The translations under genes and the position numbers were made by a program. The notes beneath the pieces were generated by a model. That model did not search any database and had not been told where the DNA came from. It saw nothing but the letters and a program-made list of their open reading frames with translations. A stretch of DNA of 64,000 bases, from contig OY754472.1 of assembly GCA_963575645.1 (NCBI GenBank), positions 1,550,001 to 1,614,000 of the forward strand. Direction: 5' to 3'. Numbering within the stretch: position 1 is the first letter of the stretch; each line of letters opens with the position of its first letter. This DNA comes from Xanthostigma xanthostigma. Lineage: Eukaryota; Arthropoda; Insecta; Raphidioptera; Raphidiidae. Below, piece after piece: positions 27,117 through 54,503 of this stretch.

Positions 27117-27722
27117 GGTTTAATTCGCATAGAGCTGAAAATTGGTACAGGTCTTAGGTACACTATTACAAATAAAATATCAAAAATCCCAACCTATCCT
27201 ACATCTGCTAAAAAAATTTATTCACAGTCAAAGGTTAAAAGTATCGGTTTTTTTGCACTTTTCTCGTAAACGGTAAATGTTATCTAAAAATATGGTCAGA
27301 CAAAAGTTACAGATCATGGAATTGTCTACAAGAATTGTTCTTATACTTTTTTTCCTACGAATCACCATTCTTTTGAAATGGTGATTTCATACATCGAAAA
27401 AATATGCATATTAATGTTTAACGTTATTTTTGATAAATACGTTCAGTACGTACATAGATATTTTGGACCCATATCTCAAGAATGGTGATTCGTAGGAAAA
27501 AAATATAAGAACAGTTTTTGTAGACAATTTCACGCTCTACAACTTTTGTCTGATCTATTTTTTCGATAACATTTACCATTTATGAGAAAAGTACAAAAAA
27601 ACGATACTTTTGATATTTGGTCTTGAATAAGTTTTGAAGTAGATCTGTGGGGACTTTTGATATTTTATTTGTAATGGTGTACTTAAGACCTGTACCAATT
27701 TTCAGCTCTATGCGAAATATAG
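27117..27722. repeat. Foldback element upstream of ACSL exon 1
   Basis: Diverged arms of roughly 250 bp are inverted (left GAAAATTGGTACAGGTCTTA, right TAAGACCTGTACCAATTTTC; inner CGAATCACCATTCTT / AAGAATGGTGATTCG). The element ends about 80 bp before the exon acceptor at 27,805. It is non-coding. Confidence 0.85.
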
Positions 27723-27813: not shown

Positions 27814-30800
27814 ATGGATCAATATCTCCATTACATCGGAGGACCAGCCGGTGCCCTAGCACTTACGGGCGTCGCAGCAGCCTCCGCCTTTTACCTTGCC
27901 AGTCGGCCCCAATCGGAGAAACCACTTGTTGAACTTGATAAGCAGAGCAGATTATTATCAGTGAGTACCCACGCATTTTTTTTTTCATTATCGTCGCCAT
28001 TTTTCTTTTTGGATTCTAAAAAATCGTTTCCATATTATGAAGGCGAAGTTCTTTACAAAATGGCCGCACTATGCGAAGCTTTTTGTATACAAGGTTACAG
28101 TGTTTTATTCAAAAAAAACAAGAAAATTGTCGTTGAGCTGATACTAATCCGTCAAAACGTAATTCTATTGTCGGTCACGTTATTTGATGCAAGCTGTAGT
28201 GATAGGGTTAACTTTGTCGCTTTCTGCATGCGAACGTCAAAGTTCTATAGCTGGGAAGAGGATACCGAACATTTTTTCAAATGTGCCTCATCGTAGGGAG
28301 GGATTAAAAGCTATATCAACATTAACACTTGTTTCGCCTTAACATACTAACACAATTAGGTATTGCACAACACATATCATGATTCCTCTTCGATTTTTCA
28401 ACTTGCATAATTGTATAAATTTATAAAAATACGTATTTACTGTATGAAACGCTTCGCATAAGATAGTTCACTGAAATGATGAGTAGATGGCAGCATTGTC
28501 GAATTAAAATCCTAGTACCCTCTCCACTACACTCTGTTGTTAAGCTGGCTAAATGCCATCTGAAAAACATTTGTTGACGCTAAGCTCTATAGCTCTGTGA
28601 AGTAGGCAAAAAACTAAAAGTAAATTCCCATTAACTCGAAAACAATCAAATAAATAAGCGCATGTCTAAAAATAAGTCATTTCACAGCATTGACCAATAA
28701 CTGACCATTTTTAGGGGTGATTATTAACTTTTTGCACTGCATTTATACGTATAGGTTTATAACGTATAGGTTTTGATTCCCAAAAGTCTTGAAAGCCGGA
28801 GACCAAAGAGATCCTATAAGGGTTCCTTTTTTCCTTTTGAGGTACAAAACCCTAAAAATGATACTTCTTCGAGGTTTAGAAGTTTGCAATTCTTAAAATA
28901 CAATTAGGTTAAAACATTAACCAAAATAAAATAAATAAAACAATTAAGTTAAAACAAAAATTTTTTTTCACTTTAATTATCAAAATATAATATAGCTTCA
29001 TCAGATATACAGTATTACAACTGTAATACTGTATATCTGATGAAGCTGCTGTGACAGCGAAACATATGTCATATTTTGATAATTAAAGTGAAAATCTTTT
29101 TTAACTTAATTGTTTTATTTATTTTATTTTATAATGGACTTTCATCAAGTAAAGGCAGAAACTATTAGATTTATTAAAACATTAACCATCGAAGAACAGT
29201 TACTAAATGTTTAAGCATGCCAAAGTCATTGTAACTATATTTTAGACGTCAGAGAAACAGCTCAGAGCTTTGCCTCTTACAAAATTTGTCGTCCAAGGAC
29301 GTAGATAAAGGGGGTAATTACCCCCCCCCCCCCCCGCAGGATCATAATAATAAAAAAATAATACGAATTGCGGAATTGCTGCCTAAAACAATTTAAATTT
29401 AAAAACACTTCTTGAAAAAAAATTTGCAAAAATTGGTTTGGAACTTGATATTTTGCTTGGCATCTTCCTTTGTGAGTATTCTTGTGTGATATTAATAAAA
29501 CTTAAAAAAAAATTGGTTGTCTGTAAAGTCGGTTTACGGACGATAATTTTACGTGATAACGTATTCCGTAATACATAACCTAAACCTCCCAAAATTTGGT
29601 TATCCTTGGTGTCGGAATGATAAGAAATGTCAAAAGTGACGTTTGCAACTGTCAAAGTATTATGTTCTAATAATAATTAGTTATTCCAATACTTAACTTA
29701 GAAGGCGTTGCATTTTACAAAATACTAATGTCAAAAAATTGAATTAAACATTAGAAATGCAGCCGTTTTCATGTTAAGACAAGACATACGTTATTTTCTA
29801 ATTTCCATGTACGGCAAACAAAGACGACCGACCGCGTCGCGCCATGCATTAGACAACATTGCATTTATACAGCTATTTTTCTATATAAATTTGTATAAAA
29901 TATTTTTCTATATAAATTTGTATAAAAAAACTGTTTAGGCAAATTCTGTTATACGAAATCTATGTAAAATGTTCTCCTCTTTCGTTTAAGACTGGTTTCA
30001 AACCGATCTGATTTAAATTGAGCGAGAAATTAGCAAAAAGCACGCACAGGGTCAGGCGGAACGTTACGCGTTACGCGTTACGAACGTTAGAAACGTTAGG
30101 ATTTAGGAACGTTACACTTTTTCGTGCATGCAGCCGGTGTTTTATCAATTTATAAGAAAATTAAAATATCTACGCCCTTGTTGTCGTCTCTTGGGTATGA
30201 TGTTGTAAGAAAGTCGAAATATAATTATTAATAAATGAAAATGCGTATAATTTCCGCTCGTGGTTTAGAATGCGGCCGTTCGAGCCCCGATGCTGTTGGA
30301 ACCAAACTAAAATAAACGACGCTACATGGCGCGCAGCCAAAACGTAGTAGCTAATGTAAAAGACACACAATACTTAAAGTGCAACGCTGTTTAGTGCCAG
30401 GCGAAGACTGCTTCACATTTTATTGCGGAAGGCACACCTGATGTTTAAAAATGAGACCGACAAATTTTGGGTTGATTTTAAGAAAGTTTCTATACGGACG
30501 AAGATCCCAGAAAGCTTTGTTACGGCGTCACAGTCCACCAAAAGTTTGGATTTTTCAAGTCACTCTTACAATTAAGTAGTAGATCCCGCATAAACCTTAT
30601 TGGATTTGGTTCTCGGTTAAATTGATCGTAAATGGTTTTATTTTATAGTTTAAAGGTCACTAAGAAATAAATATAGTTTAAAAAAAACTAAAAAACACGC
30701 TTTATATCGAACTAAAAAGTAAAAAATATTTTTTTTAAAATAAGCTTAAAAAGCGTGGGGTGCTTTGTTCCACATTTTCGTACATCGAGCGCCCCACGCT

Positions 30801-33800
30801 TTTTAAGCTTATTTTAAAAAAATTATTTTTTACTTTTTAGTTCGATATAAAGCGTGTTTTTTAGTTTTTTTTAAACTATATTTATTTTTCACTTTTTAGT
30901 TTGATATAAAGCGTGTTTTTTAGTTTTTTTTAAACTATATTTATTTTTCACTTTTTAGTTTGATATAAAGCGTGTTTTTTAGTTTTTTTTTAAACTATAT
31001 TTATTTTCCACTTTTTAGTTCGATTTATTGTCAAAAATTTGCCGAAAAATAAACAATTTTTTTTTTGGGCGTGGACGGGATTAGAACCTGCGACCCGTGA
31101 TGCCGAGAGTTGACGTCAGCGAAAACCCGTGCCTTAGACCGCACGGCTAGCCAGTGTACTTAGTGTGCTTGCATATTATACCGCTATATAAACCACTTGC
31201 TGTAGTCCAAACGAGTTTACAAACATACATACTTACATACACACAAACTTACAAGTGAAACTAATATAAAGCGTGTAAAAATCAATTGATTTTTAGCTGC
31301 AGATATGTTTAGCGAGATTTTAGATATAGGGATATCCAAATCTTTGATTAACGTCTGAATAGAACTCTTCAAATAAATAAAATTGTCGACCAATTTTTTT
31401 CAGACCATATATTGACAAAAATTATATAAAAATATAAATCAAAATAACAAAGGATGACGTTTCGATCCGGATTTGGATCTTCTTCAGAAAAATCTAAAAA
31501 ATATATAAATTATTAGTATTAGTTATTTAATATTATCTAATAGAATGCACGATGATTGAATTCAATCAATATAATTTTTGTTAATATATGGTCTGAAAAA
31601 AATTGGTCGACAATTTTATTTATTTTTAGGGATATCCATTGAATTAACAATCTTAAAAGCTCTAGAAACATGTTTCCGAGTGCGCTGAATCCGAATATGA
31701 CATTATTATTTATTACAGGGTGACACCTTCCAAAATCACCTAGTTTTCTACTATTTTTCTATTTCTAAAAGAAAGCACAAAAGTTGAACACGAAACATGT
31801 TTGTGAATTCAATGGATATCTAAAATCTCGCTAAACATATCTGTAGCTAAAAATCTATTGGTTTTTAGCTACATGGACACTTTTTCTTAGTGACCTTTAA
31901 ACCCTAAAATAAAACCATTTTCGATCAGTTTAACCGAGAACCAAATCCCATAAGGTTTGTGCGGGGTTCTTTCTCAAAACTGACTGTTTTTTTGATTACA
32001 TTTTGCATAAAAAAATCATAATATTTTATAGAGTAAATTGTGACTAAAATAGACTTTTACTCATCTGCTTTCCTGATGTTATGAAACACAATTTATAAAC
32101 AAACAAATTGGCGGATATATTGTCTAATTAAACCAGCTCAAAGCTACCCTTATTCTCTAAAAATTTCAATAATAAAACAAAGAAACTAGCTGATTACCAT
32201 ATGCTTTGGTTAATTTTTACATGTGAAACCATATATTATGTAACTGTTAAAAGTCGCTGACGCTCGTTTTTAACGTAGTGTTACATTCGTAAAATATTAG
32301 TCATCGCGCGCTAGAAACATAACCTGCTATTATAACTTTCATTCTTTTCAAAATATTGTTTTGAAATATGCAAATATACATCTCATCATAATATGACAGT
32401 CACATGTGAAAGACTAGTATTTTCTACAAAATTATAGATGCACCACTATATTATAGTTATTGAGCAATTTTTTGCTATGAAAACATAATTTGTTTTCAAG
32501 ATGTTATTTTATTATTTTGAGAATACTAGCTTTTACCGGTGGTCTTGTTCACGTCAACTTCCGTTTTGACATAAAATTTATCATAACTTGTCCAAATCTT
32601 TGATTAACGTCTGATTAGAACTCTTCAATAAATAAAATTTTATTTATTATCATAACTTGTACCCACGAAGTCTGTAACCAGGAGACCTAGCTTCCTATGC
32701 TCGATGGACCGTTTTCTGGTGCACACGAGATGGCGCTGTTATCACTACCTGGGAAAACTTCGATTCTTTCCGCTTGTTTTCACCATAGTAACCAAAACTA
32801 TTTCGCAGACACTACACACATAATATAAGCCATGAAAGTGTGTGCGTTACCCATTACATGACGCCATATTGGTTCATGCGACAGATGTCGGTCCACCGCT
32901 ACGCTCGAGCTGAATCTCCTATAGTTACAGACTTTCGTACTTCTACCGTCGATAGTATACCAAGCTACATAAAAAATCGTCGAAACGTTCTATATTCTAC
33001 TATAAAATGATGATAAAATAAAATAAAAATTAATTAAAAATAAACCAGTTTAGAGTTCTTTTATTGCTTTTTGAAATTTTTAAAAAATATTTAGAAAAAA
33101 AATTGTTAATTTGGAGGCGCCGGGTATCGATCCCGGTACCTCTCGCATGCTAAGCGAGCGCTCTACCATCTGAGCTACGCCCCCTGTTATTTGAACACTA
33201 CCAAAAAAAAAGTACTTGCTGTGTTACTGACCTCGTTTTTATTTTCTTGTTTGACCAGACTGTAACTCACATTATAATTTGCTTCATAAATAAGTACCTG
33301 TCTAGGCGAATTATTAGAGCAAATTTAAATTGAAAAAACAATACTACATTTTTTTTAAATCGTTCCTTCGTATAAGAATATTACAGTCCTTGTAAGTGTA
33401 GGAGTGAAAAGCAGGTTTAATCAATTAATAATAATAATTAATGAATTTAATGAATTAAATAAAATGAAATGCTTCAAGAATAGTTACTTGATAGAGTTGA
33501 TCAGACCTAATGCGCTCCCGGATTTTATTTTAGTCTGATCAAAACACTAGAGCCTAGAGTAGTGACCCATAATTATTTCCCTAATGCCCATATTCACCGA
33601 ACACTATTAAGGAACAAATTTATTCTTTTAATTTCAGTTTACCAAGCAAAATATCAGGAAAAGTAAATTAAACTATACTCTTTGCACTTTTTGACGTTCA
33701 CCCAAAAATCCGACCGATGGCGTTAGTGTAGACGTTACAAAAAAAGTTTCACAAAATAATGTTTTATCCTAACCCAATTGCACACAAAAACTTCAACTAA

Positions 33801-36800
33801 CTTTAATGTTTTTACAACCATACACTTCACAAAAGTTTAATAATTAATAACACATAAATAAATTCACAAGAGCAAACTGTAGATATAACACTCCACGTTT
33901 ATAGGTTAGTGTGCTGTATTTGAAATATTATGCAAGTTTCATTTAGTTTAAAAGTATTACGTAATTATATTATTAATATAAATTCTTTTTATTGCAAATA
34001 AATTAACAAGCGAATGCTTTTGAAATTTCAAACAGAACTGATTTTATTTTAGAAAAAGAATTTACAATCTTAATATAATTACGTAATACTTTTAAACTAA
34101 ATGATCCTTGCATAATATTTTATATTTCAAACACAGCACAGTTAGGTATTGTAATCTATGTGGCGGCCGTTATTATATCAGGCGAATAAATATTTATACC
34201 CTGGAAGTAAGACAGAATAGATTTATATACATGCAGTAAACATATTTATGCTTAGTGAATTGAATTATCGCTATTTATTCGGAGGAATAAATAAATAACT
34301 ACGTTCGGTGAATATGGCTCTATTGCTTGTACAATAAAGCCGTTTTTTCGATTATGTTTTTAGTACAATTTGCACTCGGACGAAGCCGGGCCGGCCAGCC
34401 CCCCTCACTTTGAACTCGCGTAAGTAATAGACGTGATCTATACGAAACACGGTGAAAGCTTCCGCGCAAAAATAAAACGAGCTTTTTATTGAAGCGGTCG
34501 ATCTAAAGTCGCGTATCTATTCCTGTCGCTCTCTCAGTCCATCCCTTGGGATAAGCTAGAAAGACATTATTACACACGTTCAGTCCAATCCATTCATTCA
34601 TACAACTCTCATCCCTCCAATTAAACGGGAATAGCTTAATTAGAGTGCGTCTTGTTACAAAATTAAAGGGAACAAAACAATTCGCGTAGTTATGGAACAT
34701 TTGAGTTGCATGTCTTTAACGGTAAATGGATTATTAATGTTGCATAACTGTGTTATGTAACTTATTTGGATTCTGAACGTTTTTAAAACAAGTGAAGTGT
34801 TGTTTTCTTCTTCAACAATGTCTACGAACCGTACATGTTGCGCGAGGTGTTGCCCCTGTTGTTGCACCTTCCAGGAGCCGATAAAAGTTCCGCTCGATCT
34901 TACCAATCAGTCGGATATTATCAAAGTAAGAAGTAGATTTTGTTAATTGTCAAGAAATAAGTCGTTAGTGCCTTAATTAATGAATTACATCAAATTAAAA
35001 AGACGTCGCAATACGTCCACAGGCCTAGGTAGGATTCGAATCCACTACGGTCTGGTCTACCAAGCTGTCCCCTTGCAACAAAGTATATCTATATTTCTTA
35101 TACAGTGGTAACACTGAATAATTCTTGTATCCATGCATTTTTCTTCAAATGCCAACATAAGTATGCTTTTTTTAATACATTTTTGAAATCTCCATTTTTT
35201 TCTCTATAAATTCATATAAAGTTTTCATATATGAGAAAATATTCGATAAATACGTTATCAATTTATTAATTAAATAAGCAGTAATATTAATTATTATTTA
35301 ATATTTACGCATGTAGGGAGTGCTATAAAAAATAATTACCTATTACTGTGTGTTTAATTAATAAATTTCTAACGTTTTTCTCGAACATTTTCTTATGTAA
35401 CCTTATGAAAATGATATGAATTTGTAGAGAAAAAAAGACCTGTAATATTACACATTAGTAATGTAATTTATGGGACAAATGTAATATTACACATAGTACT
35501 GTAATTTATGTGGCAAAGCATTATATTGTGCTTATGTAGTGTCCCAATTTTACAAAAATATTAATAAAAAAAAGCTGTGGTCGTTTAAAAAAAAATGTGA
35601 ATAACTGTAATTTATGTCAACAAAACCGGCGTTATTTTACAATAGTAAAAGCTGCTATCGGCGACACTCCTTTAAACAAGTGAAGAAGAATGTTATTGTT
35701 TCAGTAACTACTTATTAGATCTAATTGTTATTGTGCAATTAAACCTTTTTTCGTGGAAGGAATTCCGACTATAGTCTTGCATCAATTACTAATTTTAAAT
35801 GACCTGCATTGCAGAAACAAGTCGCATGACATTATCTTCTCTCACTATGCAAATGTGACTAGAAAATTTGTGCCAAGACACATTTGTTGATGCAGACGGT
35901 TGAGGATAGTTTGTCTATTAAGGCAATCGTCCACAAAAGGTTTATTTTCAGAAAAATTGACAAATTTTTAAACGTTTTTATTTAGCTTGACTCTGTATAT
36001 TTATTTCTTTATATCTTTACTTATATCCAAATCTTTGATTAACGTCTGAATAGAACTCTTCAAATAAATAAAATTGTAGACCAATTTTTCATAGTTTTCG
36101 ATAATTAACTTCTGCGTTCTATTATAAAATCAGTAGATTTTACTATTTTTTTTTTTATTTTTAGATATTTCTCAAGAAGATCTAAACCCAGATCGAAACA
36201 TCATATTTTGTATTATTGATTTATAATTTTATTTTTGTCAATATATAGTCTGAAAAAAATTGGTCGACGATTTTATTTATTTGAATCTTTAAATATATCT
36301 TTATTTCATTGTTTCAAATCTTGGGACATCTTTTTCATTTACTTCCCGTTATCCGATTGAGTTGAAATTTTTGCACACATATGAAGTTCCGATGACAATA
36401 CAATATTATAATAACTAACTGACCTTTCCGGATTTCGTCCGGGTGCAAAATGCATTTTTTATAAAGCATGCGACAGTTTTTCTTAACTACTTCCCGTTAT
36501 CCGATTAAGTTGAAATTTTGCATACATATGAAGTTCCGATGACAGTACAATATTATAATAACTAACTGACCTTTCCGGCTTTCGTCCGGTTGCAAATCGC
36601 ATTTTTAATAAAGCATGAGACAGCTTTTTTTAACTACTTCCCGTTATCCGATTGAGATGAAATTTTGCACACGTATGTAGTTCCGATGACAATACAATAT
36701 TATAATAACTAAGAGGGCTCCTATCGATCGCGGGGCCCTGGGCACGTGTACAGTGTGCCCAGTGGGAATGAGGGGCCTGGCTATTTATGACCTTAAAAAA

Positions 36801-42800: not shown

Positions 42801-45800
42801 AAAAAATATTATACAGAACAGTGGCGCTAGCTTGTCGCATAGAATTTTTATTGGAAATAATATAGGTGTCCCAAAATAATTGTTTTATGATTTTCGATCT
42901 AGGTAGTTCTAACATTAGACAATTTGAAATTGAGCTCAAAAAGTACTTCACTACAAATTGTTTTTATAGTATAAATATAGTATGAATATTTAAATTCTTA
43001 GCTTTTAATTTGATTTTTATTTGACTATTCACATCTATATAAAGACTTGCTTATTGAAAAGGTGTTTTATAATACAAACGAACTATTTTTATAACTATTT
43101 TAATGTAACTATGTAAGATTTAATGTACCTATGTTTGACGTTTTAATCACCTCTCTGAGGTTTTATTTAAATAAATGCATTATTATTATTATTACTTAGT
43201 ATAGCTAGGTGAAATGTTATTATTATTATTATTATTAGTTAGTTTTGAAATCATTACAGCTATTCGGAACCCAAAGGAATGGTGAGACCTCTGGTGAGAA
43301 ATGCGCCGAACTGTTCTAAGGAGGGTTTTTGATGTACATCACTGAGAAGATGTAAAATTTTAACAAATTTTAAATTTTTGACCTGTATTTGAGTTATTGA
43401 TGAGCTTTTGCCTTCAGGTTCACGGTTTAAACTTTAACCGAAATATGAAAAGTATGATTGCAGTTTTTAAATTTATATTATTGTTTCAGGGACCTGAAAT
43501 GATCAGAGTTTCGAAGTTCTATAAAGATTCGAAAGAAGGAAAATTCGTCAGCTATCTCAGGGACGATATCAGAACTTTATACGACACATTTAGACTAGGT
43601 GCTAAAGAATCAAGTAAGTATGTCACGCAGTATTATCAGCTTTAAAAAACGCGGATGCATTCCCATTATTTGGCATAGCTACTCCTTTCTCGACGTAGAC
43701 CATCCATAATAAATTCCAAAAAAATTGATGACATTCACGTGATCAACGTCCTGATGAACTGAAGGAGATTTATTTGGTTGAGGAACAATTAAAAATAAGC
43801 TTTACCAGTGTATCGCTTGTGGCCACAAGCGATACACTGGTAAAGCTTATTTTTAATTGTTCCTCAACCAAATAAATCTCCTTCAATACATATTTTGGAA
43901 CAAAACTTCTACCAGTCCTGATGAACCTTGAAAATGACCCCATGTTGACTCTCTTAGACTATTTACCTCTTTTCACCCTTTGGAAGGGGTTGTTTTTGAA
44001 AAAGCATGAAACACGTGTTTATTTATTTGTTGACAGGAGTAATCCTGCGCATTTTAGAATTGATAAATCTATCTCCATACAAATTTTGAACCCTCGTTAC
44101 ACCCTTTTACGGGTTGAATTTCCAAAAATCTGTTCTTAGCGGATTCCTACGTTATAATTAGGCTTTTGAAAAAAAAATAATTATCGATTTTTTTATTGTA
44201 TTTTAAAACTTTATTATAAATAATATTGATAATCGATGCGAAAACTTTCAAAAAACTTTTTTAAAATTAATTAAAAGCAATTTAAAATTCATAAAATATT
44301 AAAAAAAATCACGTGACTGCAAACGCACTAAAATTGTTTTTGACAGTTGTGACGTCATAATGGTAAAATGTATATACGTAGTATACTATCAATGGCTTCT
44401 ACATGTATTATTATAATAATATAAATTACCATTATGACGTCACATTATGTTCGGGAAATGTCGGCGCGTTCTCGGAACTGGGTACAAAAATTTATTTTTA
44501 ATTTGATATAACTTTTGAATTATAACGAAAATAAAAAAAAAGAAAAATAGTTTTCTTATAAAACTTATATACGATCTTTCCATTTATGACAAAAAAAAAT
44601 TTCATTCAAAAGCCCAATTACTATCTGTGTGCCAAATTTTAGCCCAATCCGTCCAGTAGTTTGAGCTGTGCGTTGAGAGATCAGTCAGTCACGGTTTCCT
44701 TTTATATATTTTGATAATATAAAATTGTATGTTTATTGAGATTGAATTTGTATTATTATTTTATTTTATTACTAGCTGCACCCGCGGCCACTCGTTGCTG
44801 TGGCTCGGGTTTGCGCGTGGTAGTTACGTTCAACATAAGGCGCTCCCATTGCCGTAAAATGTTTAGTATAGCGTGTGTTGCTTTGTCGTCCAACAGGTGG
44901 CAATGTATTCAATAGATGTCGCTCTCATTGCCGTAAAATGTTCAGTATAGCGTGTGTTACTTTAACGTCTAACAGACGACGATGTATTCAACGAATGTCG
45001 CTCTCATTGCCGTAAAATGTTCAGTATAGCGTGTGTTACTTTAACGTCTAACAGACAGCGATGTATTAAACGGATGCCGCTCTCATTGCCGTAAAATGTT
45101 TAGTATAACGTGTGTTGCTTTAATGTCCAACAGATAGCGCTGTTTTTCAAAAAATCTATTTGATTTCTTTTGGATCTTTTGAATATAGTATTATTTTTTA
45201 AACGGAACAAAAATGTTTTTATTGAATTATTTTACTAAAACAAGTTGTGTTTCAAATCTTTGATTAACGTCTGATTAGAACTCTTCAATAAATAAAATTA
45301 TTTTATTTATTGAAAAGTTGTGTTTCAATTTAAGAATGTAATGAAATCGTTCGGTAAACTGTTTTCCTTTTCTAGATAATGGGCCATGTCTCGGTTGGAG
45401 AGAGGGTCCCAACAAACCATATCAATGGTTAAATTTCAACGAAGCCCTGCTGAGAGCAAAGAATTTCGGCTCCGGTTTGGTAGCGCAAGGACTCCAGCCA
45501 AGCCCCAATACTTTCATCGGCATTTACTCCCAAAATTGTCCAGACTGGATCGTCACAGAGCAAGCTGCCTATTGCTACAGTATGTGTATTGTGCCGCTGT
45601 ATGATACATTGGGACCAGACGCATGCGCGTATATTATTAAACAAGGTCAGTTATTCTAAACCCCACTTCACACGAGGCTGGTTTTGCCACTGAAATCACT
45701 GCTGGCCGTGACGTCACTGCGAGCTCACGGGATTTCAAAATTAAGACCGGGGCAATTTTTCGTGCATGTTTTTCTGTTGCTTTTTAGCACGAACCAAGTC

Positions 45801-48800
45801 ATACAGAATAGAATATTGCACATACCGCTAAACTAGCGGTATGTGCTTTATTATCGCTTTGTGCATCAGAGGTGACTTTCGTTTATATAAGAAGTTATAT
45901 CTAAGTTAATTTCACACGAAATCCATTCAAATTGAAGCTTTTTGAAAAGAGGAGATTCTGATCTATAAAACAGAACCATTTTGAAATCAATTCGAGTTCA
46001 TAAATACTATTAAAATTGTAATTGAAAATCACAAACAGCAGTTGTCGGTTGGTCTGTACGTATGTACGTACGTACGTATGTACGTACGTCACGACTCTAC
46101 AGATCGCAATTTTGGTCGGATTGCCTTGGGTTATATTTTATTCACTTTGTTTACTATAAGACCAGAACCCTATTTAAATTCACTAAAATGTGTTCAGTAG
46201 TTTAATTTTTATAAACAGTTTTATTTTATTATTTTTGACAGCTAATAGTTTGAAAAAACAATATAATAATTACTATGTCTTTTATTCCTTATATGGCATA
46301 GAATAAGTCACAATTAAAATATTTGTAAACAATTTAAACACAGTACTTTAAGTGTTCTGTTCAGAGACAATAAACGTTCACTTTTGTTAACATTCGAACT
46401 GTCATGGCGCGCGCACCAAAGCTATCTACAAATTATTTACCGACGCAAAACTACATAAAAGAACACATGACGTGGTTATGTTAGATGTCGCCATTAACAA
46501 ACGCTAAGTTCGCAACTTTGAGTTACAAGTAGAGCCACTTAAATGACACACACACACACACAGCAAGCGCTAACACACATTTTCGCGCTGTCATCTAACT
46601 GAATTAAACGTAACAGCGTCCAGCGTCACGGCATTTGCACGTTTTTATTCCCCTCCAAACACGCCAGTAGATGTTTAGCAACAATAATATTTTAAGTGGT
46701 CTGCGAACTGACTTTGTTATTTTTATCTGTATGGTGTATTTGATTTCAGCTGAAATAAGTGTAGTTATTTGTGAAGATGATGCCAAATGCAATCTTATAC
46801 TAGATAAATCGCCCAAGTGCCTTAAAAAATTGATAGTTATAAAGGATACGAGACCGGCCACCAATCAGAGAGCAAGAAATCGCGGGGTCGAGATTCTTAA
46901 ATTTAACGATGTTGAAAATTTAGGAGCACAAAGAGATCATCCTGAAGTTGTAAGTATAAGATAAATACTTTATTTTTAAACGCTTTATATTAGTTTGGGT
47001 TGTAACTAACTATGTATGTATGTAACTAACTATGTATGTATGTCCGTAACGGAATCTTTGAGCATAATTTTCACCAATTTCCCGAAGTCTGATTAATTTG
47101 AAACTTTGCATACGTATCAAGGACCGATGACAATGCAATAATTTGATAACAGTTTCCCATTATCCTTATTAGGACCCCCAGGATTAATAAATTCTTTTAT
47201 AGATCCTCTGTAGTAAACGCTTTATTTTCACCAATTTCCCGAAGTCTGATTAATTTGAAACTTTGCATACGTATCAAGGACCGATGACAATGCAATAATT
47301 TGATAACAGTTTCCCATTATCCTTATTATTAAACGCTTTATATTAGTTTGGGTTGTAACTATGTATGTATGTCCGTAACGGAATCTTTGAGCATAATTTT
47401 CACCAATTTCCCGAAGTCTGATTAATTTGAAACTTTGCATACGTATCAAGGACCGATGACAATGCAATAATTTGATAACAGTTTCCCATTATCCTTATTA
47501 GGACCCCCAGGATTAATAAATTCTTTTATAGATCCTCAAACTAAAAAGTGAAAAATAAAATATAGTTTAAAAAAAACTAAAAAACACGCTTTATATCGGA
47601 CTAAAAAGTAAAAAATAATTGTTTTAAAATAAGCTTAAAAAGCGTTGGGCGCTCGATGTACGAAAATGTGGAACAAAGCGCCCCACGCTTTTTAAGCTTA
47701 TTTTAAAACAATTATTTTTTACTTTTTAGTCCGATATAAAGCGTGTTTTTTAGTTTTTTTTAAACTATATTTTTTATATAACTATCTGGTCGCTTTTATT
47801 TTAACGCAATAATATACAGATTGTATCAAATCAAAACGGTCCATAGAACATTCTGTGTGTAAGACAGAGACGATATTATATAAAGCACTAAAGCAGTAAG
47901 TAAGAATGAGATAAATGATCGCTAATAGTTACTGTGGTTACATAAATAAATAATTACGTACACTGTAAATCTTTTTATCAATTAAAACAACTAAACTGTA
48001 ATATTAATGTTTTCAAAGACAGCTACAAATAAATTTATTATGTCGGCGGTTGAATTACCACCGTAAAACCATTTAATTATTTGGATTTTTTCCCGAACAG
48101 TATAAATAGCCATTTTATCAATAATTTCTATAGTAAATACTGACATTTGATAAAATTGTGATTTTTACTGTAGAAAACAAAGACGATACTATCAGATTGT
48201 ATAACCACAGTAACTATTAGCGATTATTTATCTCATTCTTACTTACTGCTTTAGTGCTTTATATAATATCGTCTCTGTCTTACACACAGAATGTTCTATG
48301 GATCGTTTTGATTTGATACAATCTGTATATAGTCTATGCCCATTCTGAAGGTCCATTCTAAATATTGGTGAAAAAAAATTGAAATCGGATGAGTAGTTTC
48401 GGAGATCACCTCCTACATACAAACTAACAAACTTTACCTCTTTATAATATTACTATAGATGAAATTTTGAGATTGGTGTTTATGTAAAAAATTATTAATT
48501 TGTCGCATACCTCAAAATATCATTATTTTCCTCCTTTTAGATACTGTTTGAAGGAAGTTATTTTTTTTTCAAAAATTTTTTTTTTATAATTTTCAGCCTC
48601 CAAAGTATACAGACCTGTGTACAATCTGCTATACTAGCGGCACAACGGGGAATCCCAAAGGCGTGATGTTAACACACGAGAACGTACTAGCCGGTGTTTG
48701 TGCCGTAGTACTTCAATTGGGGGAGCACCGCCCCACAAGCGATGACATCATGATTTCTTTTCTACCACTTGCGCACATGTTGGAGAGGTGTTGTGAGGTT

Positions 48801-51800
48801 CGTAACAATTTCTATGTATATACATTTTAAACAAAACACAACGCTGTAGCTTTGTTTGTCATTTCTGAAGATCTGTCAAAAAGAAATGAGTTGCTGTCAG
48901 GCATGCTTTGGTAAAATTAAATTTAAATTTTAAACTAAGTAACAAACGTGTCGCAGTCTAGTAACCAACCTAAACTAGAACCAAAGCTCATAGATTCGAC
49001 CCCGTTACTTCTGTAGTGTGTAGTGTTAAATACACAGTCTCTTTTTTCCAGAATGCTTTATACATGGTCGGCGGCTCCGTCGGTTTCTTTTCTGGCGACA
49101 TCAGAAATTTATCTGAGGACATGAGAGCACTTCGGCCAACAGTAACTCCAGCAGTACCAAGACTTTTAAACCGAATATACGATAAAGTACAAGCTGAAAT
49201 CAACAGTTCGTTCGTGAAAAAAGTTTTGTTTAATATGGCGATGAGTGCCAAAGAAAACGAAATTAAAAGGTGAATACAAAGTTTATGTGTAGGGGAGAAC
49301 GGGGTCAATTGTAACAATGACTATTTTAATGACATCAGCTACCAACAAAATGAGAAAATGATACTACTACTTACATTGAATTATTTAAATATCTAAAACC
49401 GTGTCTGACTGACTGATCTACCAACGCAGAGCTCAAACCACAGTACTGATTGGGACGAAATTTGGCACATAGCTATTATGACGTAGGCATCCACTAAGAA
49501 CAGATTTTTGTAAATGCAACCCCTAAAATGCATGGAGAAATCATATAAGATAGATGTATCAATTCGAAAATGCGCAGGATTACTCCTGTCAACAAATAAA
49601 TAAACACTGCTTTTTCAAAAACAACCCCTTCAGAGGGTAAAAAGTGGTAAATAGTCTAAAAATCAATATGGGTGTCATTTTCAAGGTTTGTCAGGACGTT
49701 GATCACGTGAATGTCATCAATTTATTAGGGGACTTTACGTCGAGAAAGGAGTAACTATGCCAAATATTGGGAAAGTTCCCGTGTTCGTGCGAAGCCGCGG
49801 GCAACAGCTAGTAAATTTATATTTCTGATACATTTTCAGAGGCATAATCCGCAGAAACAGTTTTTGGGACAAACTGGTGTTCAGAAAAGTACAAGAAGGC
49901 ATGGGAGGTCGGTTGAGACTAATGGTGGTCGGTTCAGCTCCTTTGGCAGGCAACGTTCTTACCTTTATCAGGTGCGCGCTCGGCTGTTTGGTGCGTATAA
50001 ATACTCGTGAATTTTTTTGAAATGCAAGAACTATGAGTTATTAATTTTTTTAAAATTTCTTTAAAGGTGGTTGAAGGATACGGCCAAACCGAATGTTGCG
50101 CTCCTGTAACTGTGACAGTCCAGGGGGACCATGTTCCCGAACACGTGGGACCTCCCGTAGCCTGTTGTTGTGTTAAATTGGTAGACGTTCCTGAAATGGA
50201 ATATTTCGCTCACATGGGTCAAGGAGAAGTTTGTGTCAAGGGCACAAACGTGTTCCAAGGTTATTTCAAAGATCCAGAAAAAACAGCTGAAACCATTGAT
50301 GAAAAAGGATGGCATCATACTGGCGATATTGGACAATGGTTACCGGTAAGCAAGTCCTCTGTAGAGACATTTCCTCAAAACTTTTCCTATGAATAGGTCA
50401 TATGCATGATTTTTTTTTATATTTTTAATAGATTATTTAGTCAACCATAATACGGAAAAAAATTGATAATCATTTAAAAATGTAATATTATCATAAGAAA
50501 AAAAATATTAAATTCCACATTCAAAAATAGACAGTTTAAACAATCGGCCATGTTCGCGGGCTTATGTGACGTCATGATATACGATGCATGCCAACCTTGA
50601 TGTCAAATTGTCAATGTTCTAAATGAAGTTTATTTGTTGTTTTCTCTAAATACTGACATAATCTTACTGTGAGACGACACAGTCGTCATGAAAACTGTTT
50701 TTGATATATACTCTGACGTCACGATGCTTTTTGAAAATTCGAAAGTAGCGCTTATTTTCTACATTTCTTTTTTATTATTTGTATTTTTTTCAGTGATTAG
50801 ATAAATAAAATAACCATTACGTTATGAGCAAGAACTAAAATATATTTCGAAATAAAAATTTTAACCAATTTGGAGTTTATGCATATGACCTATTGTAAAT
50901 AGGGGAAGTACAGACTCTCCGACTGTTATCTCTTAGCTTGAGATCTGAGCCTGTGACCTATCCATCAGTTGTACAGTGTTTTAAATACTCCTATGTTGAT
51001 AGTAGTGATGTGCCGGATATCCGTATCCGCGGATATCCGAGGGAGAAGAAAGATCCGTATCCGTTAGTTTTTGGCGGATCTTTTACCTTATTAATTTTCA
51101 ATTCATAGATGAAATTTTATATATATACCTAGGTGATTAGGTAATAATGAAAAACTGTTAAATTCCATTCAGATTATTTTTTATTTTTTAAAATCGTATT
51201 TGGCGCCTTTATATTGCAAACATTTAGTACCAATAGTACATAACTCAAAGGTACTAAAAAACTATCTTTATAATGAGATATTGCACATCGATGTTTGGAA
51301 AGAGACAATCTGTTATGAGAGTTAACTCTTAAAGAGGTTAATAACTTTTTCCCATAACAGATAGTCTCTTTCCAAAGGTCGATGTGCAATATTTACCGCC
51401 GCGTACTCTAAGAAAGTTAAGATCCATATCCGCGGATCTTGAAACCAAATATCCGTATTCAGATCCGTACGGATATACATTTTTAACGATCCGGCACATC
51501 ACTAATTAATAGTACGGGTCTGGAAAATGATGACGACCCAATGATGCAGGCATTGGCTGCAACATTGTAATGATTTTTATAATCGGTTTCAGAATGGAAC
51601 TTTGAAAATTATTGACCGTAAAAAGCACATCTTCAAGTTGTCTCAGGGAGAATATATAGTGCCTGAAAAGATTGAAAACATTTACATTAGATCTCAATAC
51701 GTTTCTCAAGTATTCGTCTATGGCGAATCACTTAAGGTAAGGTTATAAGATTTTAAACTTCAGATTAACCTAACTTTTAAACAAACTTTTGACGTGATAA

Positions 51801-54503
51801 CGTCTTATAAATTGATGAAACACCGGCTGCATGCACGAAAAAGTGTAACGTTCCGCCTGACCCTGTGCGTGCAAGCGAGAGCGCAGTATAAGCGATAGAG
51901 AGTCGGTAAAAATATAGTTTGACAGCTACTAAAATTTAGATTATGTATTATTAAATATGATATTCGAGCGGAATACGTTATCACGTAAAACTATCGTCCG
52001 TAAACCGACTTTACAGACAACCAATTTTTTTTTGTAACCTATACGCATTTTTTTATCTCTCCCAGATATTAAATTTTATAAAGATTAACATTAATTATCC
52101 GCCAAAATCGATGTAGGACATGCTTACCAAGTGCGTCACTACGAATTATTTGATTCCAAGATGAATAACAAAATACATTTAGCATCGTTATAACGACAAA
52201 CTCCTTAATTAAAACGTCGAAATTACTTAACTCTAGTTGGTTTACCTTGTTGCTCATTCAATGATACACTCTAAATAACGACACACCCACTCTAAATAAC
52301 GACAACAATACGTCATCATTAAACAATAAACAGTACTTGTTTGTTATTTTGTTACTTTGTTGTCGGCATCATGGGTACTGAACGATTCTAGGAAATTCGT
52401 TCTTTTGTTTGTTGGGATTATCTTTTATATTATGTTTGTTGGTCAGTTGTAAATTTTATATATTATGAGTAAATACATATTATTGTAAAAAAACATTAAT
52501 GGCCACAAAGTGAGTGTCGCTATATAGAGTTTACACTGTAAATGAAAATCTAATGAGGCCTAATCAAGGCTATTAGTGCAGGGCATAGTGGCGCATTCGT
52601 TTGCAAATTTCGTTTGGTTCGTAATTTTTTTTTTAAATGTCCAGGTGGCTCTCCTGATTATAACAGTGTAACATGACACTCAATATCTGTTGCCGTTATT
52701 GTTTAAACAACGAAAAATTGAAAATATTGCAAAATAAGTTTTTTTGCAAAAAATATTTTTTTTATATATTTTTCAGACTATTTTGAATCAAAAAAGTCCT
52801 TACACTCATTATCGTATCTTCAACCGGTGAATTTTTATGAATTTTTAAAAATTAAAAATCGTTGTAAATCGTGATTTTCTTGAATTAAATAGTACACCTG
52901 AAAAAAAAATACCGTGATTTCTATTTTTTTATTAAATATTTAAACTTTAATAAAAAAAATGGCGTAATCAGATTTCAAATATTTTATTAATTATTATGTT
53001 TATTATTCATAATAACAATATTATGCTCTTTACGCGCATGCACTTTAAGGATAGTAGTATTGTCATCTCACTCCCAGTCCTATGTATGACATTAGTAAGA
53101 GAGAGGCAGATGGTACGTTTCGACAAATTATTGCATATTGTTATTATGAATAATAAACATAATAATTAATAAAATATTTTAAATCTGATTACGCCATTTT
53201 TTTTATTAAAGTTTAAATATTTAATAAAAAAATAGAAATCACGGTATTTTTTTTTCAGGTGTACTATTTAATTCAAGAAAATCACGATTTACAACGATTT
53301 TTAATTTTTAAAAATTCATAAAAATTCACCGGTTGAAGATACGATAATGAGTGTAAGGACTTTTTCGATTCAAAATAGTCTGAAAAATATATAAAAAAAT
53401 TATTTATTGCAAAAAAACTTATTTTGCAATATTTTCAATTTTTCGTTGTTTAAACAATAACGGCAACAGATATTGAGTGTCATGTTACACTGTTATAATC
53501 AGGAGAGCCTCCTGGACATTTAAAAAAAAAAATTACGAACCAAACGAATTTTGCAGACGAATGCGCCACTATGCCCTGCACTATATAGACCAAAGCCTTT
53601 TTATTAATACAACAATTGAATTTTTCAGTCGTGTATAGTAGCTATTGTTGTGCCCGAAGTGGACGTTGTCAAGTGTTGGGCAACTGAGAATCGTATCCCA
53701 GGTACCCTAAGCGTACTTTGTGCGAATCAAGAAGTAAAACAACTCATTTTAGACGACATGATCTCCTGGGGAAAAGAAGCGGGACTCAAATCATTCGAAC
53801 AGGTATTTATAAATTGAAAAATATTATTTGCGTAATTTCTTAACTGGTCCGTCAAACGCGTGTTGACTGTAAAGCCTGCCATTATGCCGTAAGATAACAT
53901 ACTTACCGAAGATAGGAGTGGATTGTTTCACGCATGTTTGTTTTTGACGTCTTATAAATTGATGAAACACCGGCTGCACGCACGAAAAAGAGTAACGTTT
54001 CGCAAGCGAGAGCGCGATATAAACGATAGTCTCTCTCTTCTCGCGTGACGTCAGAGAGTAGTGTGCGTTCAACATTTTTTTCGGCTGTTCCAGCGAAAGC
54101 TACATCTGACAGATGGCCAGATAAATTATACGGTTTGTTAACCAATATATAATATATATACATTCTTTTAGATGTCTTTTATAAATTGCTTAAAAATATG
54201 TATTTTGCTTTGGTTGATCAAATTATTAGTCGGTAAAAATATAGTTTGACAGCTACTAAAATTTAGGTTATGTATTATTAAATATGATATTCGAGCGGAA
54301 TACGTTATCACGTAAAACTATCGTCCGTAAACCGACTTTACAGACAACCAATTTTTTATTTATAGGTTAAGGACATCTATCTACATCCTGATCCGTTCAG
54401 TGTACAAAATGGACTCCTCACACCGACACTAAAATCGAAACGTCCTCAAATTAAATCTTACTTCAAACCACAACTAGAAGATATGTACGTCAAGCTGGTT
54501 TAA
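27814..54503 (+). CDS. Acsl: Long-chain-fatty-acid-CoA ligase (ACSL1/5/6 type), 11 coding exons
   Basis: Activates long-chain fatty acids to acyl-CoA (ATP to AMP and PPi) at ER, mitochondrial outer or lipid-droplet membranes. Exons: 27,814-27,960 (acceptor at 27,805), 43,490-43,613, 45,376-45,645, 46,750-46,949, 48,597-48,797, 49,052-49,269, 49,840-49,990, 50,067-50,345, 51,593-51,736, 53,629-53,802, 54,366-54,503. All junctions are GT..AG and phases match, giving 681 residues, the usual family length. Residues about 8-28 are a hydrophobic anchor. Motifs: P-loop [11 protein letters not shown] (259-269), GYGQTE (441-446), [11 protein letters not shown] (518-528) with Asp524, IIDRKK (536-541), and LTPTLKSKR with the expected catalytic Lys659. 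Introns are packed with MITEs and Helitrons; intron 1 is 15.5 kb. Residue 266 is Asn where many homologues have Asp; this is not expected to harm activity. Alternative N-termini are listed separately. Confidence 0.96.
28300..28922. other. ACSL intron 1, no feature recognised
   Basis: The open frame continuing past the exon 1 donor (27,961) is intron read-through, because GTGAGT is used and exon 2 continues the protein. No repeat ends or RNA genes are seen here. Confidence 0.5.
28923..29132 (+). mobile_element. Foldback element with hammerhead-ribozyme-like core
   Basis: Outer arms AATAAAACAATTAAGTT and AACTTAATTGTTTTATT, and inner arms around TTAATTATCAAAATAT, are inverted. The right half holds a 23-nt piece missing from the left. 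It completes CTGATGA (29,037), a GCTG/CAGC stem, GAAA (29,059), CATATG and TC (to 29,070), flanked by ATAT/ATAT as a possible stem I. This is the layout of a type I hammerhead with a minimal stem III, except for one extra A after CTGATGA. Confidence 0.65.
29321..29335. repeat. Poly-C run
   Basis: Fifteen consecutive C in otherwise AT-rich intron DNA. Its exact length may be affected by sequencing. Confidence 0.9.
29511..30154 (-). mobile_element. MITE family E, long variant
   Basis: Starts AATTGGTTGTCTGTAAAGTC and ends in GCAGCCGGTGTTTTATCAAT; the last bases with GACGTTATCACGTC are missing. The interior is almost identical to 40,022-40,689 in inverse orientation, so the two arose recently from one source. 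30,155-30,585 holds nothing recognised. Confidence 0.85.
30669..31024. repeat. Palindromic H element with tandem tail
   Basis: Arms of about 95 bp meet near GGGGTGCTTTGTTCCACATT / GAGCGCCCCACGC and include AAAAAGCGTGGGG. The right arm end (about 60 bp, GATATAAAGCGTGTTTTTTAG) is repeated three times in tandem. A relative is at 47,541-47,771. Confidence 0.85.
31062..31150 (-). pseudogene. tRNA-Leu-like sequence / SINE head
   Basis: On the minus strand GCCGTGCGGTCTAAGGCAC matches the D-arm/A-box of type II tRNA-Leu, and GCAGGTTCTAATCCCGT is a T arm with a B box (one base off). A long variable region lies between. The acceptor does not pair well, so it is likely a SINE head or pseudogene. A-rich DNA follows at its 3' side. 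Confidence 0.5.
31338..31626 (-). mobile_element. Foldback family G, copy with 11-bp target duplication
   Basis: Starts CCAAATCTTTGATTAACG and ends in the complementary arm ..AATTTTATTTATT. TAGGGATATCC occurs on both sides (31,327-31,337 and 31,627-31,637). The core on the minus strand (31,456-31,487) is CTGAAGA, GATCC / GGATC stem, GAAACGTC. The variable-length duplication suggests target-primed retro-insertion rather than cut-and-paste. Confidence 0.75.
32594..32647 (+). mobile_element. Minimal family G copy (~55 bp) with 14-bp target duplication
   Basis: AAATCTTTGATTAACGTCTG through CAATAAATAAAATTTTATT, with only the outer arm left, is flanked by perfect 14-bp copies TTATCATAACTTGT (32,578-32,591 and 32,647-32,660). 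Confidence 0.8.
32658..32941. mobile_element. MITE family N, copy 1
   Basis: The ends CCACGAAGTCTGTAACCAGG and TAGTTACAGACTTTCG are imperfect inverted repeats. A second copy at 55,225-55,506 is in inverse orientation. The interior shares GATGGCGCTGTTATCACTAC and ATGACGCCATATTGGTTCAT. Confidence 0.8.
33112..33184 (-). tRNA. tRNA-Ala (AGC)
   Basis: On the minus strand: acceptor GGGGGCG pairing with CGCCTCC (one G-T), D arm GTAGCTCAGATGG.., anticodon loop CTTAGCATG with AGC, T arm with B box GGGATCGATACCC, discriminator A. A run of T follows on the minus strand (A run 33,095-33,103), the pol III terminator. There is no intron. It lies antisense in ACSL intron 1 and looks functional. CCA is not encoded, as expected in eukaryotes. 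Confidence 0.95.
33586..34318. mobile_element. MITE with nested inverted repeat
   Basis: The ends GCCCATATTCACCGAAC and GTTCGGTGAATATGGC are inverted. Inside, 33,910-33,985 and 34,065-34,140 form a second inverted pair (TTTAGTTTAAAAGTATTACG / CGTAATACTTTTAAACTAAA). Non-coding. Confidence 0.75.
34818..34925 (+). CDS. Acsl: Alternative first coding exon of ACSL (cysteine-rich N-terminus)
   Basis: ATG at 34,818 (context TCAACA, in-frame TAA at 34,758) opens 36 codons ending at a GTAAGA donor (34,926) in phase 0, the same phase as the ordinary exon 1. It can therefore splice directly to exon 2 at 43,490. The last residues, [15 protein letters not shown], align with [15 protein letters not shown] of exon 1, so both exons encode the same segment of the protein. 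The start differs: [11 protein letters not shown] (residues 6-16) has seven cysteines in place of the hydrophobic anchor, suggesting attachment by S-acylation or another localisation. The predicted isoform is 668 residues. DNA upstream (34,330-34,817) is not obviously repeated and may be a second promoter. Confidence 0.75.
34995..35075 (-). pseudogene. tRNA-like remnant
   Basis: The minus strand shows AGCTTGGTAGACCAG (A-box-like) and GGATTCGAATCCTACC (B box in a good T arm) at tRNA spacing, without a matching acceptor stem. Probably a SINE head. 35,080-36,025 holds nothing further. Confidence 0.35.
36029..36283 (+). mobile_element. Foldback family G, diverged copy
   Basis: Both arms are present (AAATCTTTGATTAACGTCTG at left; AAAATTGGTCGACGATTTTA at right). 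The centre reads CTCAAGAAGATCT..AGATCGAAACATC on the plus strand (36,171-36,202), a degraded hammerhead-like core. Confidence 0.7.
36335..36725 (+). repeat. ~147-bp tandem repeat, three units
   Basis: ACTTCCCGTTATCCGATT recurs at about 36,341, 36,489 and 36,636. Units also share GAAGTTCCGATGACAATACA and a Helitron-like CCTTTCCGGATTTCGTCCGG, so the array probably grew inside a Helitron. Confidence 0.85.
37159..37500 (+). mobile_element. hAT-type MITE, copy 1
   Basis: The ends TAGAGCTGTAAAAG and TTACAGCTCTA are inverted and flanked by perfect 8-bp duplications ATTGTTAC (37,151-37,158; 37,501-37,508). The interior is full of CGTTACT/AGTAACG repeats. A related copy is at 59,830-60,144 in inverse orientation. 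Non-coding. Confidence 0.92.
37783..38311. mobile_element. hAT-type MITE with TCCCG-rich ends
   Basis: The ends CAGCGTTGCCAG and CTGGCAACGCTG are perfect inverted repeats with the duplication ATTAAGAC at both sides (37,775-37,782; 38,312-38,319). The subterminal parts repeat GTCCCG/CGGGAC in both orientations. Confidence 0.93.
38608..38950 (+). mobile_element. Helitron 5' part, truncated
   Basis: ACAAAGTCCCCCGCCGCGTC and GCGATAAACTCAAAAACTAC match 7876-7990; the later part (GATGATTGTTGAAGATGTCG) matches 8990-9170. No 3' hairpin is present. 38,950-40,020 has no recognised feature. Confidence 0.6.
40022..40689 (+). mobile_element. MITE family E, complete long copy
   Basis: Begins TTTGACGTGATAACGTC and ends ACTTTACAGACAACCAATT. 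The interior matches 29,511-30,154 almost base for base in inverse orientation. The two sit about 10 kb apart in ACSL intron 1. Confidence 0.88.
40690..41840. other. Intron 1 DNA with an unclassified repeat
   Basis: 40,780-41,060 resembles a widespread insect repeat (CAGACAAACAGACTAACAG, GTACCGTTCCCCACTTGTGG) but ends are not defined. 41,741-41,836 is repeated at 52,331-52,435 (TACTTGTTTGTTATTTTGTT..GTTGTCGGCAT). No exon is supported. Confidence 0.45.
41842..42583. mobile_element. Two Helitron heads in opposite orientation
   Basis: A plus-strand head begins TCTATACTAACATATAAAGC (41,842) and runs to about 42,065. From there to 42,583 is a minus-strand copy of the same subfamily ending ..TATTAGTATAGA. 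The two 5' ends face outward and the 3' hairpins are missing. The minus copy carries the tRNA-Lys-like segment at 42,236-42,309. Confidence 0.7.
42236..42309 (-). pseudogene. tRNA-Lys(CTT)-derived sequence inside a Helitron
   Basis: The minus strand reads TTAGCTCAGTCGGTAGAGC, anticodon region GACTCTTAATCTCAGG (CTT) and T arm GTGGGTTCGAGCCCCAC, all as in a true tRNA-Lys. Only the acceptor stem fails to pair. It is the best preserved of the three copies. Confidence 0.7.
43010..43195 (+). mobile_element. LINE 3' end, 5'-truncated
   Basis: From 43,041 one frame reads [17 protein letters not shown] then stop, like the C-terminal tail of CR1/Jockey-type LINE proteins. A short 3' UTR with AATAAA and an (ATT)n tail near 43,180 follow. 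Confidence 0.6.
43760..43885. repeat. Perfect 126-bp palindrome
   Basis: 43,760-43,822 and 43,823-43,885 are exact reverse complements (63 of 63) with no spacer; the centre is TTGTGGCCACAA. It lies in ACSL intron 2, inside DNA that resembles the Helitron at 49,380-49,811 in inverse orientation. The nearby open frame at 43,921-44,139 belongs to that repeat. Confidence 0.97.
44772..45150 (-). mobile_element. Helitron with 79-bp internal tandem repeat
   Basis: CTAG (44,772) and GCTGCACCCGCGGCCACTCG mark a 3' end on the minus strand. Inside, GCCGTAAAATGTT recurs at 44,851, 44,930, 45,009 and 45,088, exactly 79 bp apart, with slightly diverged units (TAGTATAGCGTGTGTT). Confidence 0.75.
45254..45314 (+). 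mobile_element. Minimal family G copy with 14-bp target duplication
   Basis: The outer arm alone (AAATCTTTGATTAACGTCTG..TTTTATTTATTG) is flanked by AAGTTGTGTTTCAA at 45,242-45,255 and 45,315-45,328. It lies about 60 bp before ACSL exon 3. Confidence 0.8.
45665..46430. mobile_element. Pieces of MITE family D in ACSL intron 3
   Basis: 45,665-45,800 (CACGAGGCTGGTTTTGCCAC) and 46,350-46,430 (GTTCAGAGACAATAAACGTT) match the left and middle of the family D element at 11,164-11,440. DNA between has no recognised feature except a GTAC-rich microsatellite (46,058-46,089). Confidence 0.55.
46977..47535 (+). repeat. Tandem repeat, three diverse-length units
   Basis: CACCAATTTCCCGAAGTCTG recurs at about 47,070, 47,229 and 47,401; units also share GTATCAAGGACCGATGACAA and TTTCCCATTATCCTTATT. 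Units 1 and 3 include TGTCCGTAACGGAATCTTTG; unit 2 lacks it. Confidence 0.85.
47541..47771. repeat. Palindromic H element, copy 2
   Basis: Arms of about 90 bp (AAACACGCTTTATATCG / CGATATAAAGCGTGTTT) meet around TGGGCGCTCGATGTACGAAA. It is related to 30,669-31,024, with the central loop in the opposite orientation. Confidence 0.88.
47812..48331. repeat. Foldback element with ~130-bp arms
   Basis: The left arm ATACAGATTGTATCAAATCA and right arm TGATTTGATACAATCTGTAT continue through ATCGTCTCTGTCTTACACAC with few differences. The spacer is AT-rich and non-coding. A Helitron 5' end on the minus strand (TCTATAGTAATATTATAAAG, 48,345-48,459) follows. Confidence 0.85.
49380..49811 (+). mobile_element. 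Helitron in ACSL intron 6
   Basis: The body begins near GTGTCTGACTGACTGATC and the 3' end is CGAAGCCGCGGGCAACAG then CTAG (49,808-49,811) and T. It finishes only 28 bp before exon 7 (49,840), close to the branch-point zone. Confidence 0.65.
50392..50894 (-). mobile_element. MITE family O, copy 2
   Basis: The ends AATAGGTCATATGCAT and ATGCATATGACCTATT; the interior is the reverse complement of 13,559-14,062 with few changes. It starts 46 bp after the exon 8 donor. Confidence 0.88.
51003..51504. mobile_element. hAT-like MITE with nested hairpin
   Basis: The ends TAGTGATGTGCCGGAT and ATCCGGCACATCACTA are inverted; the flanks GTTGATAG and ATTAATAG match at 6 of 8 bases. Subterminal GGATATCCG motifs recur. 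51,280-51,400 is a separate hairpin (TTGCACATCGATG..TGGAAAGAGAC and complement). Confidence 0.8.
51787..52030 (+). mobile_element. MITE family E, short copy
   Basis: Both ends are complete (TTTGACGTGATAACGTC and TTACAGACAACCAATT) with a reduced 244-bp body. Inserted 50 bp after ACSL exon 9. Confidence 0.88.
52574..53584. repeat. 1-kb foldback with ~440-bp arms
   Basis: The left arm from TAGTGCAGGGCATAGTGG to about 53,019 and the right arm from about 53,145 to CCACTATGCCCTGCACTA are nearly exact reverse complements. The spacer of about 125 bp includes TCTCACTCCCAGTCC. The element ends 44 bp before exon 10 (53,629). As part of the ACSL pre-mRNA it would form a very long hairpin. Confidence 0.92.
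53943..54357 (+). mobile_element. MITE family E copy abutting ACSL exon 11
   Basis: From GACGTCTTATAAATTGATG to TTACAGACAACCAATTTTTT, it matches 19,141-19,557 in inverse orientation. Only eight bases (ATTTATAG-like) separate it from exon 11 at 54,366, so the pyrimidine tract of this acceptor lies in MITE sequence. Confidence 0.88.

Follow-up and report, generated by a model that had tools for sequence, protein, structure and literature searches.

The fate of long-chain acyl-CoA is believed to depend in part on the site of its synthesis, and this site in part on the N-terminus of the long-chain acyl-CoA synthetase (ACSL) that makes it. In the 64,000-nucleotide stretch of DNA analysed here (the window), intron 1 of an ACSL gene contains a short open frame that had been put forward as a second, cysteine-rich first exon, and this raises the question whether one gene equips a single enzyme body with two kinds of N-terminus. 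The reading favoured here, which as a whole is quite probable, is that the frame is a true first coding exon, an alternative to exon 1 with a probable promoter of its own and a cysteine cluster that is most likely S-acylated.

The gene model and the exon in intron 1

The gene was rebuilt as 11 coding exons, in frame, from 27,814 to 54,503 on the forward strand (Table 1). A human ACSL5 sequence served as tblastn probe to locate the exons, and the splice sites were placed by eye. The Pfam search of the spliced product gave the AMP-binding domain PF00501 at residues 91-491 (E 9.3e-85) and AMP-binding_C at 23.8 bits, slightly below the cut-off of 24.5. The gate motif D-x4-(F/Y)-LPLAH-x2-E was found in exon 5; in the terms defined in PMC1543647 it is of the F type, and the model contains this one gate. 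Both first coding exons contain the linker (D/E)-L-x-x-Q-S ahead of the enzyme body. Judged by these features the gene is a long-chain acyl-CoA synthetase, a fatty-acid-activating enzyme, of the ACSL1/5/6 type.

The alternative exon has 36 open codons, starting at an ATG with A at -3 and preceded by an in-frame stop, and is closed by the donor AAA/GTAAGA in phase 0, like exon 1. The spliced model gave products of 681 aa with exon 1 and 668 aa with the alternative exon, free of internal stops. In all of these points, from the start to the product lengths, the original prediction agreed with the model. On the forward strand of intron 1 the alternative exon is the sole ORF that starts at an ATG, runs for 20 codons or more and ends at a phase 0 GTRRG donor (1 of 1). 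Its donor ranked 288th of 3,568 GTs, with a score of 4.72. The ten main donors of the gene scored 6.23-9.82 with the matrix that they themselves had trained, and the fair comparison is the leave-one-out one, in which they scored 3.02-7.86. Since two of the ten then fell below 4.72, the donor of the alternative exon is ordinary for this gene. The third-position G+C was 0.556 in the 36 codons against 0.408 in the gene and gave no clear support.

The 36-residue peptide had no match in Pfam. A PDB search gave, for the best 60 of 165 matched sequences, best stretches starting at residue 94 at the earliest; in five alignments the earliest stretch began at residue 76, and none touched the residues of the alternative exon.

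Table 1. Positions in the window of the ACSL exons and of the elements of the alternative exon
Feature	Positions	Strand	Basis or remark
Exon 1, standard, ATG at 27,814, with hydrophobic segment	27806..27960	+	Gene model, acceptor score
Possible promoter region	34301..34600	+	G+C 0.44, TCAGTC sites; suggestive only
Alternative first coding exon, 36 codons, phase 0 end	34818..34925	+	ORF, donor, tail likeness
Cysteine cluster, codons 7-16, 7 Cys, includes CCPCC	34836..34865	+	Sequence, window count
DLTNQS motif, common to exon 1 and rat ACSL1	34896..34913	+	Four codons before donor
Exon 2, to which either first coding exon would be joined	43490..43613	+	Gene model
ACSL exons 3-11, whole span	45376..54503	+	tblastn, gene model, Pfam AMP-binding
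ACSL exons 3-5	45376-45645, 46750-46949, 48597-48797	+	tblastn, gene model
ACSL exons 6-8	49052-49269, 49840-49990, 50067-50345	+	tblastn, gene model
ACSL exons 9-11	51593-51736, 53629-53802, 54366-54503	+	tblastn, gene model

Exchange of the hydrophobic segment for cysteines

The comparison of the two N-termini confirmed the predicted loss of the hydrophobic segment. The best 19-residue hydropathy was 0.59 in the alternative exon against 1.49 in exon 1, and it fell to -0.08 when Cys was counted as 0; the N-terminal hydrophobic anchor typical of ACSL is thus absent from the alternative form. For a transmembrane (TM) helix the customary threshold is 1.6, so that the peak of exon 1 is itself modest, slightly below that value. 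The cysteines of the alternative exon occupy positions 7, 8, 11, 12, 14, 15 and 16. Their density, 7 in 11 residues, is the maximum of 61,887 stop-free six-frame segments of the window (tied with a one-residue shift), and the next separate Cys-rich place, with 6 in 11, belongs to a (CA)n repeat. A simple-repeat origin of the Cys run was rejected, its codons mixing TGT and TGC and being interrupted by GCG, AGG and CCC, and TRF at a score of at least 50 returned no array there.

A CCPCC identical to that of the alternative exon is present in PI4K2A, which is described as membrane-associated through this motif though it has no TM domain, the motif being S-acylated and required for the association (PMC3743005, PMC13380729). 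PI4K2A is a lipid kinase with its CCPCC within the kinase domain, whereas that of the alternative ACSL exon lies near the N-terminus. By this analogy S-acyl anchoring of the alternative isoform through its cysteines is plausible. The exon retains the conserved P-x-x-[DE]-L-x-x-Q-S linker into the enzyme body and brings a seven-cysteine cluster in place of the hydrophobic segment; its product would most likely be held at the membrane by reversible S-acylation and, in that form, would probably sit on a different set of membranes from the exon 1 product.

An N-terminal TM segment is reported to be dispensable for activity in isoforms 1 and 2 of human ACSL6, a member of the same family (PMC2868784). 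Deletion of residues 1-42 of human ACSL6, and with them of the predicted TM segment, is described there as leaving an active enzyme that makes acyl-CoA faster than the full-length one. The Y-gate form gained tenfold in velocity, the F-gate form showed a raised apparent affinity, and the truncated enzyme was still membrane-associated in E. coli. A tag at the C-terminus is reported to have reduced the activity of ACSL6 tenfold. Isoform 3 of the human enzyme, also truncated at the N-terminus, is inactive because it has no gate, and the window gene has one. These results suggest that the alternative product, with an unchanged catalytic part, should be an active synthetase, and that a lipid anchor, though plausible, is not a strict requirement. 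The exon could then be real and used, and the cysteines no acyl anchor, the isoform being cytosolic or peripheral or the cysteines being metal-binding or redox-responsive. The TM-less ACSL6, active and found on membranes, speaks for such an isoform, as no replacement anchor is strictly needed; against it, seven cysteines in 10 residues including CCPCC fit a known S-acylated motif, and they occupy the very site of the exon 1 hydrophobic segment. The non-anchoring alternative is considered unlikely, though deserving of some weight, and S-acylation of the cluster is the reading retained below.

One might speculate further that the alternative enzyme makes the acyl-CoA with which its own anchor is S-acylated, its membrane residence thus tracking the local supply of product. 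The proposal is a doubtful one. If true, the synthetase would anchor itself where and when fatty acid is activated, and the gene would also make a form that is anchored permanently. The review PMC12443782 reports something related for another protein, CLOCK, whose S-palmitoylation is fed by palmitoyl-CoA made by ACSL1.

Enzymes with differing N-termini from one ACSL gene have been described in man, as for ACSL4 v1 and v2 (670 and 711 aa) and ACSL5 v1 and v2/v3 (739 and 683 aa), and ACSL variants other than those of the gate exons are said to differ at the amino terminus and/or in the 5' UTR (PMC1543647). The splice forms of ACSL4 and ACSL5 reach different membranes according to the review PMC13093457. 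As they are described in these sources, the exons responsible are not stated and the human cases differ from the present one, where the anchor is exchanged for a cysteine cluster. For human ACSL6 the accounts give a splice site that alters the N-terminus (exon 3), or a swap of mutually exclusive gate exons; in the window gene, in contrast, the first coding exon is replaced and the model holds one F-type gate. The kind of variation is already known, since human ACSL4, ACSL5 and ACSL6, as these sources describe them, all have variant N-termini. In the open-licence PMC literature, the titles among the matches listed included neither an alternative first exon of an insect ACSL nor an ACSL N-terminus with a cysteine cluster. 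Nor did any of those titles concern an alternative first coding exon that swaps a hydrophobic anchor for a cysteine cluster, and isoforms of this kind may already be present in automatic annotation. A single gene that fitted one enzyme body with either a fixed hydrophobic anchor or a lipid anchor, the latter probably reversible, would offer a clean natural experiment on the relation of location to fate.

Splice layout and the start of the proposed alternative transcript

Exon 1 begins eight bases 5' of its ATG, at the acceptor 27,805, which scored 9.11 in the leave-one-out comparison and ranked 34th of 2,972 AGs. Because this acceptor is strong, exon 1 is likely not the first exon of its transcript and is probably preceded by a 5' leader exon, unseen in the model, farther upstream. 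The claim of mutually exclusive first exons was thus upheld in part: an alternative first coding exon is supported, while exon 1, following a strong acceptor, is probably not a first exon at all. Nested inverted repeats with arms of 78, 106 and 35 nt occupy 27121-27719, immediately 5' of exon 1, so that the main form probably has its promoter and leader exon farther upstream.

Upstream of the alternative exon, the best of the 19 AGs in 34,400-34,817 is that at 34,668, with 3.79 for the full matrix and 4.72 when 27,805 was left out. The latter value is below the full-matrix scores of nine of the ten other acceptors of the gene. The gene acceptors scored 6.64-13.30 in training and 0.74-10.61 by leave-one-out, and 34,668 falls within the second range. 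An AG farther upstream, at 34,363, scored 6.74; both this and 34,668 could act as acceptors for the alternative exon. Since no comparably strong acceptor lies near 34,818, a promoter of its own within intron 1 appears likelier from these scores, and an internal cassette exon less likely. The alternative exon would then be transcribed from inside intron 1 and spliced onto exon 2.

The possible promoter region (Table 1) compares with an intron 1 mean G+C of 0.318 and is third in G+C among the 300-base windows of the intron (the first being 0.46 and the second 0.443). Initiator-like TCAGTC sites are present in it at 34,534 and 34,580, and the DPE sought at these two sites was absent from both. 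These signs are suggestive only, because TCAGTY is present also at the exon 1 acceptor and within the alternative exon. Five ATGs stand between the initiator-like sites and the start at 34,818, and if transcription began at either site the message would carry these five upstream ATGs ahead of the start codon.

Likeness of the exon to ACSL N-termini

The 13-residue tails of both first coding exons were compared with the rat ACSL1 peptide ALKPPCDLSMQSVEV, printed in PMC4865762 as (K)ALKPPCDLSMQSVEVTGTTEGVR(R). The alternative exon scored 29, with 6 of 13 residues identical, and exon 1 scored 21, with 5 of 13. Intron 1 holds 67 real tails, of which the alternative tail scored highest, and the runner-up, with 18, was the same ORF ended at an earlier GT. 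The motif [DE]-L-x-x-Q-S occurs at three places in the 127,996 six-frame residues of the window, namely exon 1, the alternative exon and 49,415 (intron 6), and it ends four codons ahead of the donor in both first coding exons. In an alignment with human ACSL1, ACSL5 and ACSL6, L, Q and S were invariant; human ACSL6 has N in the D/E position.

The weak promoter signs and the upstream ATGs would fit a relic, a start once used as an alternative and today transcribed rarely or not at all, whose frame has survived because it is short. Frame, start, donor and motif are nevertheless all intact, the donor is of ordinary strength for the gene, and the alternative tail is closer to rat ACSL1 than that of exon 1, so that a relic is judged improbable beside an exon in use.

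Order-1 Markov copies of intron 1 were scanned under a strict rule (ATG, at least 20 codons, GTRRG donor in phase 0), which yielded 341 ORFs in 300 copies or 1.14 per simulated intron; under a looser rule (any GT, at least 16 codons) the simulated tails numbered 21,030. The summed tail score of the alternative exon, which takes in a human ACSL5 tail, is 80 and was equalled by none of the 341 ORFs; its rat ACSL1 score was likewise equalled by none, and its exon 1 score by 10. Under the looser rule, the score of 17 against the exon 1 tail was reached by 590 tails, the score of 29 against rat ACSL1 by 2, and both together by 1. The original prediction had taken the alignment with the exon 1 tail as a strong argument. 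The match is real, but equalled this often it cannot carry the case alone, and the good support for reading the frame as a first coding exon of ACSL, alternative to exon 1, comes from its resemblance to the rat ACSL1 peptide more than from that alignment. The rat ACSL1 match and the register of the motif make it very probable that the frame is an ACSL exon, chance being unlikely, and common descent with ACSL N-termini is very likely on the same comparisons. A chance ORF that looks like an exon, for which it may be said that composition alone would give an intron of this length roughly one ORF of the kind and that the exon 1 alignment by itself is often equalled, is scarcely credible against some 0.006 tails expected to reach the rat ACSL1 score among the 67 real ones, a motif in the same register as exon 1 and a summed score unequalled among the simulated strong-donor ORFs.

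Several origins and relatives were considered for the ACSL exon so identified. A recent duplication of exon 1 was rejected, since the two regions shared at best nucleotide matches of 13 and 20 bases (E 0.36). Membership of a repeat was also rejected: a single 14-base word of 34,501-35,000, at 34,723 and outside the exon, recurs in the window. A third first coding exon was sought upstream of exon 1, where the best of three candidates summed to 42, compared with 80 for the alternative exon. In viral contigs the alternative exon with exons 2 and 3 as query gave 8 pattern matches and five aligned N-terminal regions gave 16, and in neither scan was a relative confirmed. The five N-terminal regions gave 93 pattern matches in genome contigs, which led to 32 confirmed loci labelled bacterial or archaeal, none of them covering residues 1-36.

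Further elements were observed around the exons. Inverted copies at 29505-30157 and 40060-40689, with pieces 95-99% complementary and about 10 kb apart, flank the alternative exon in intron 1 and are probably copies of one mobile element. Intron 1 also houses a tRNA-Ala (AGC) gene on the reverse strand at 33112-33184 (ARAGORN; Rfam 59.8 bits), and a weaker partial Rfam tRNA match of 36.3 bits at 42246-42303, also on the reverse strand, is perhaps a decayed or tRNA-derived copy. Directly 3' of exon 2 an inverted repeat at 43754-43891 is made of two 69-nt arms, 97% complementary and without spacer. At the far end, a long open frame on the forward strand (62661-63998) runs to the end of the window. 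It encodes an AAA ATPase domain (E 2.5e-14), and its match to an RFC1-like lid, at 24.7 bits, stays below the cut-off of 34.9; it may be the clamp loader Ctf18.
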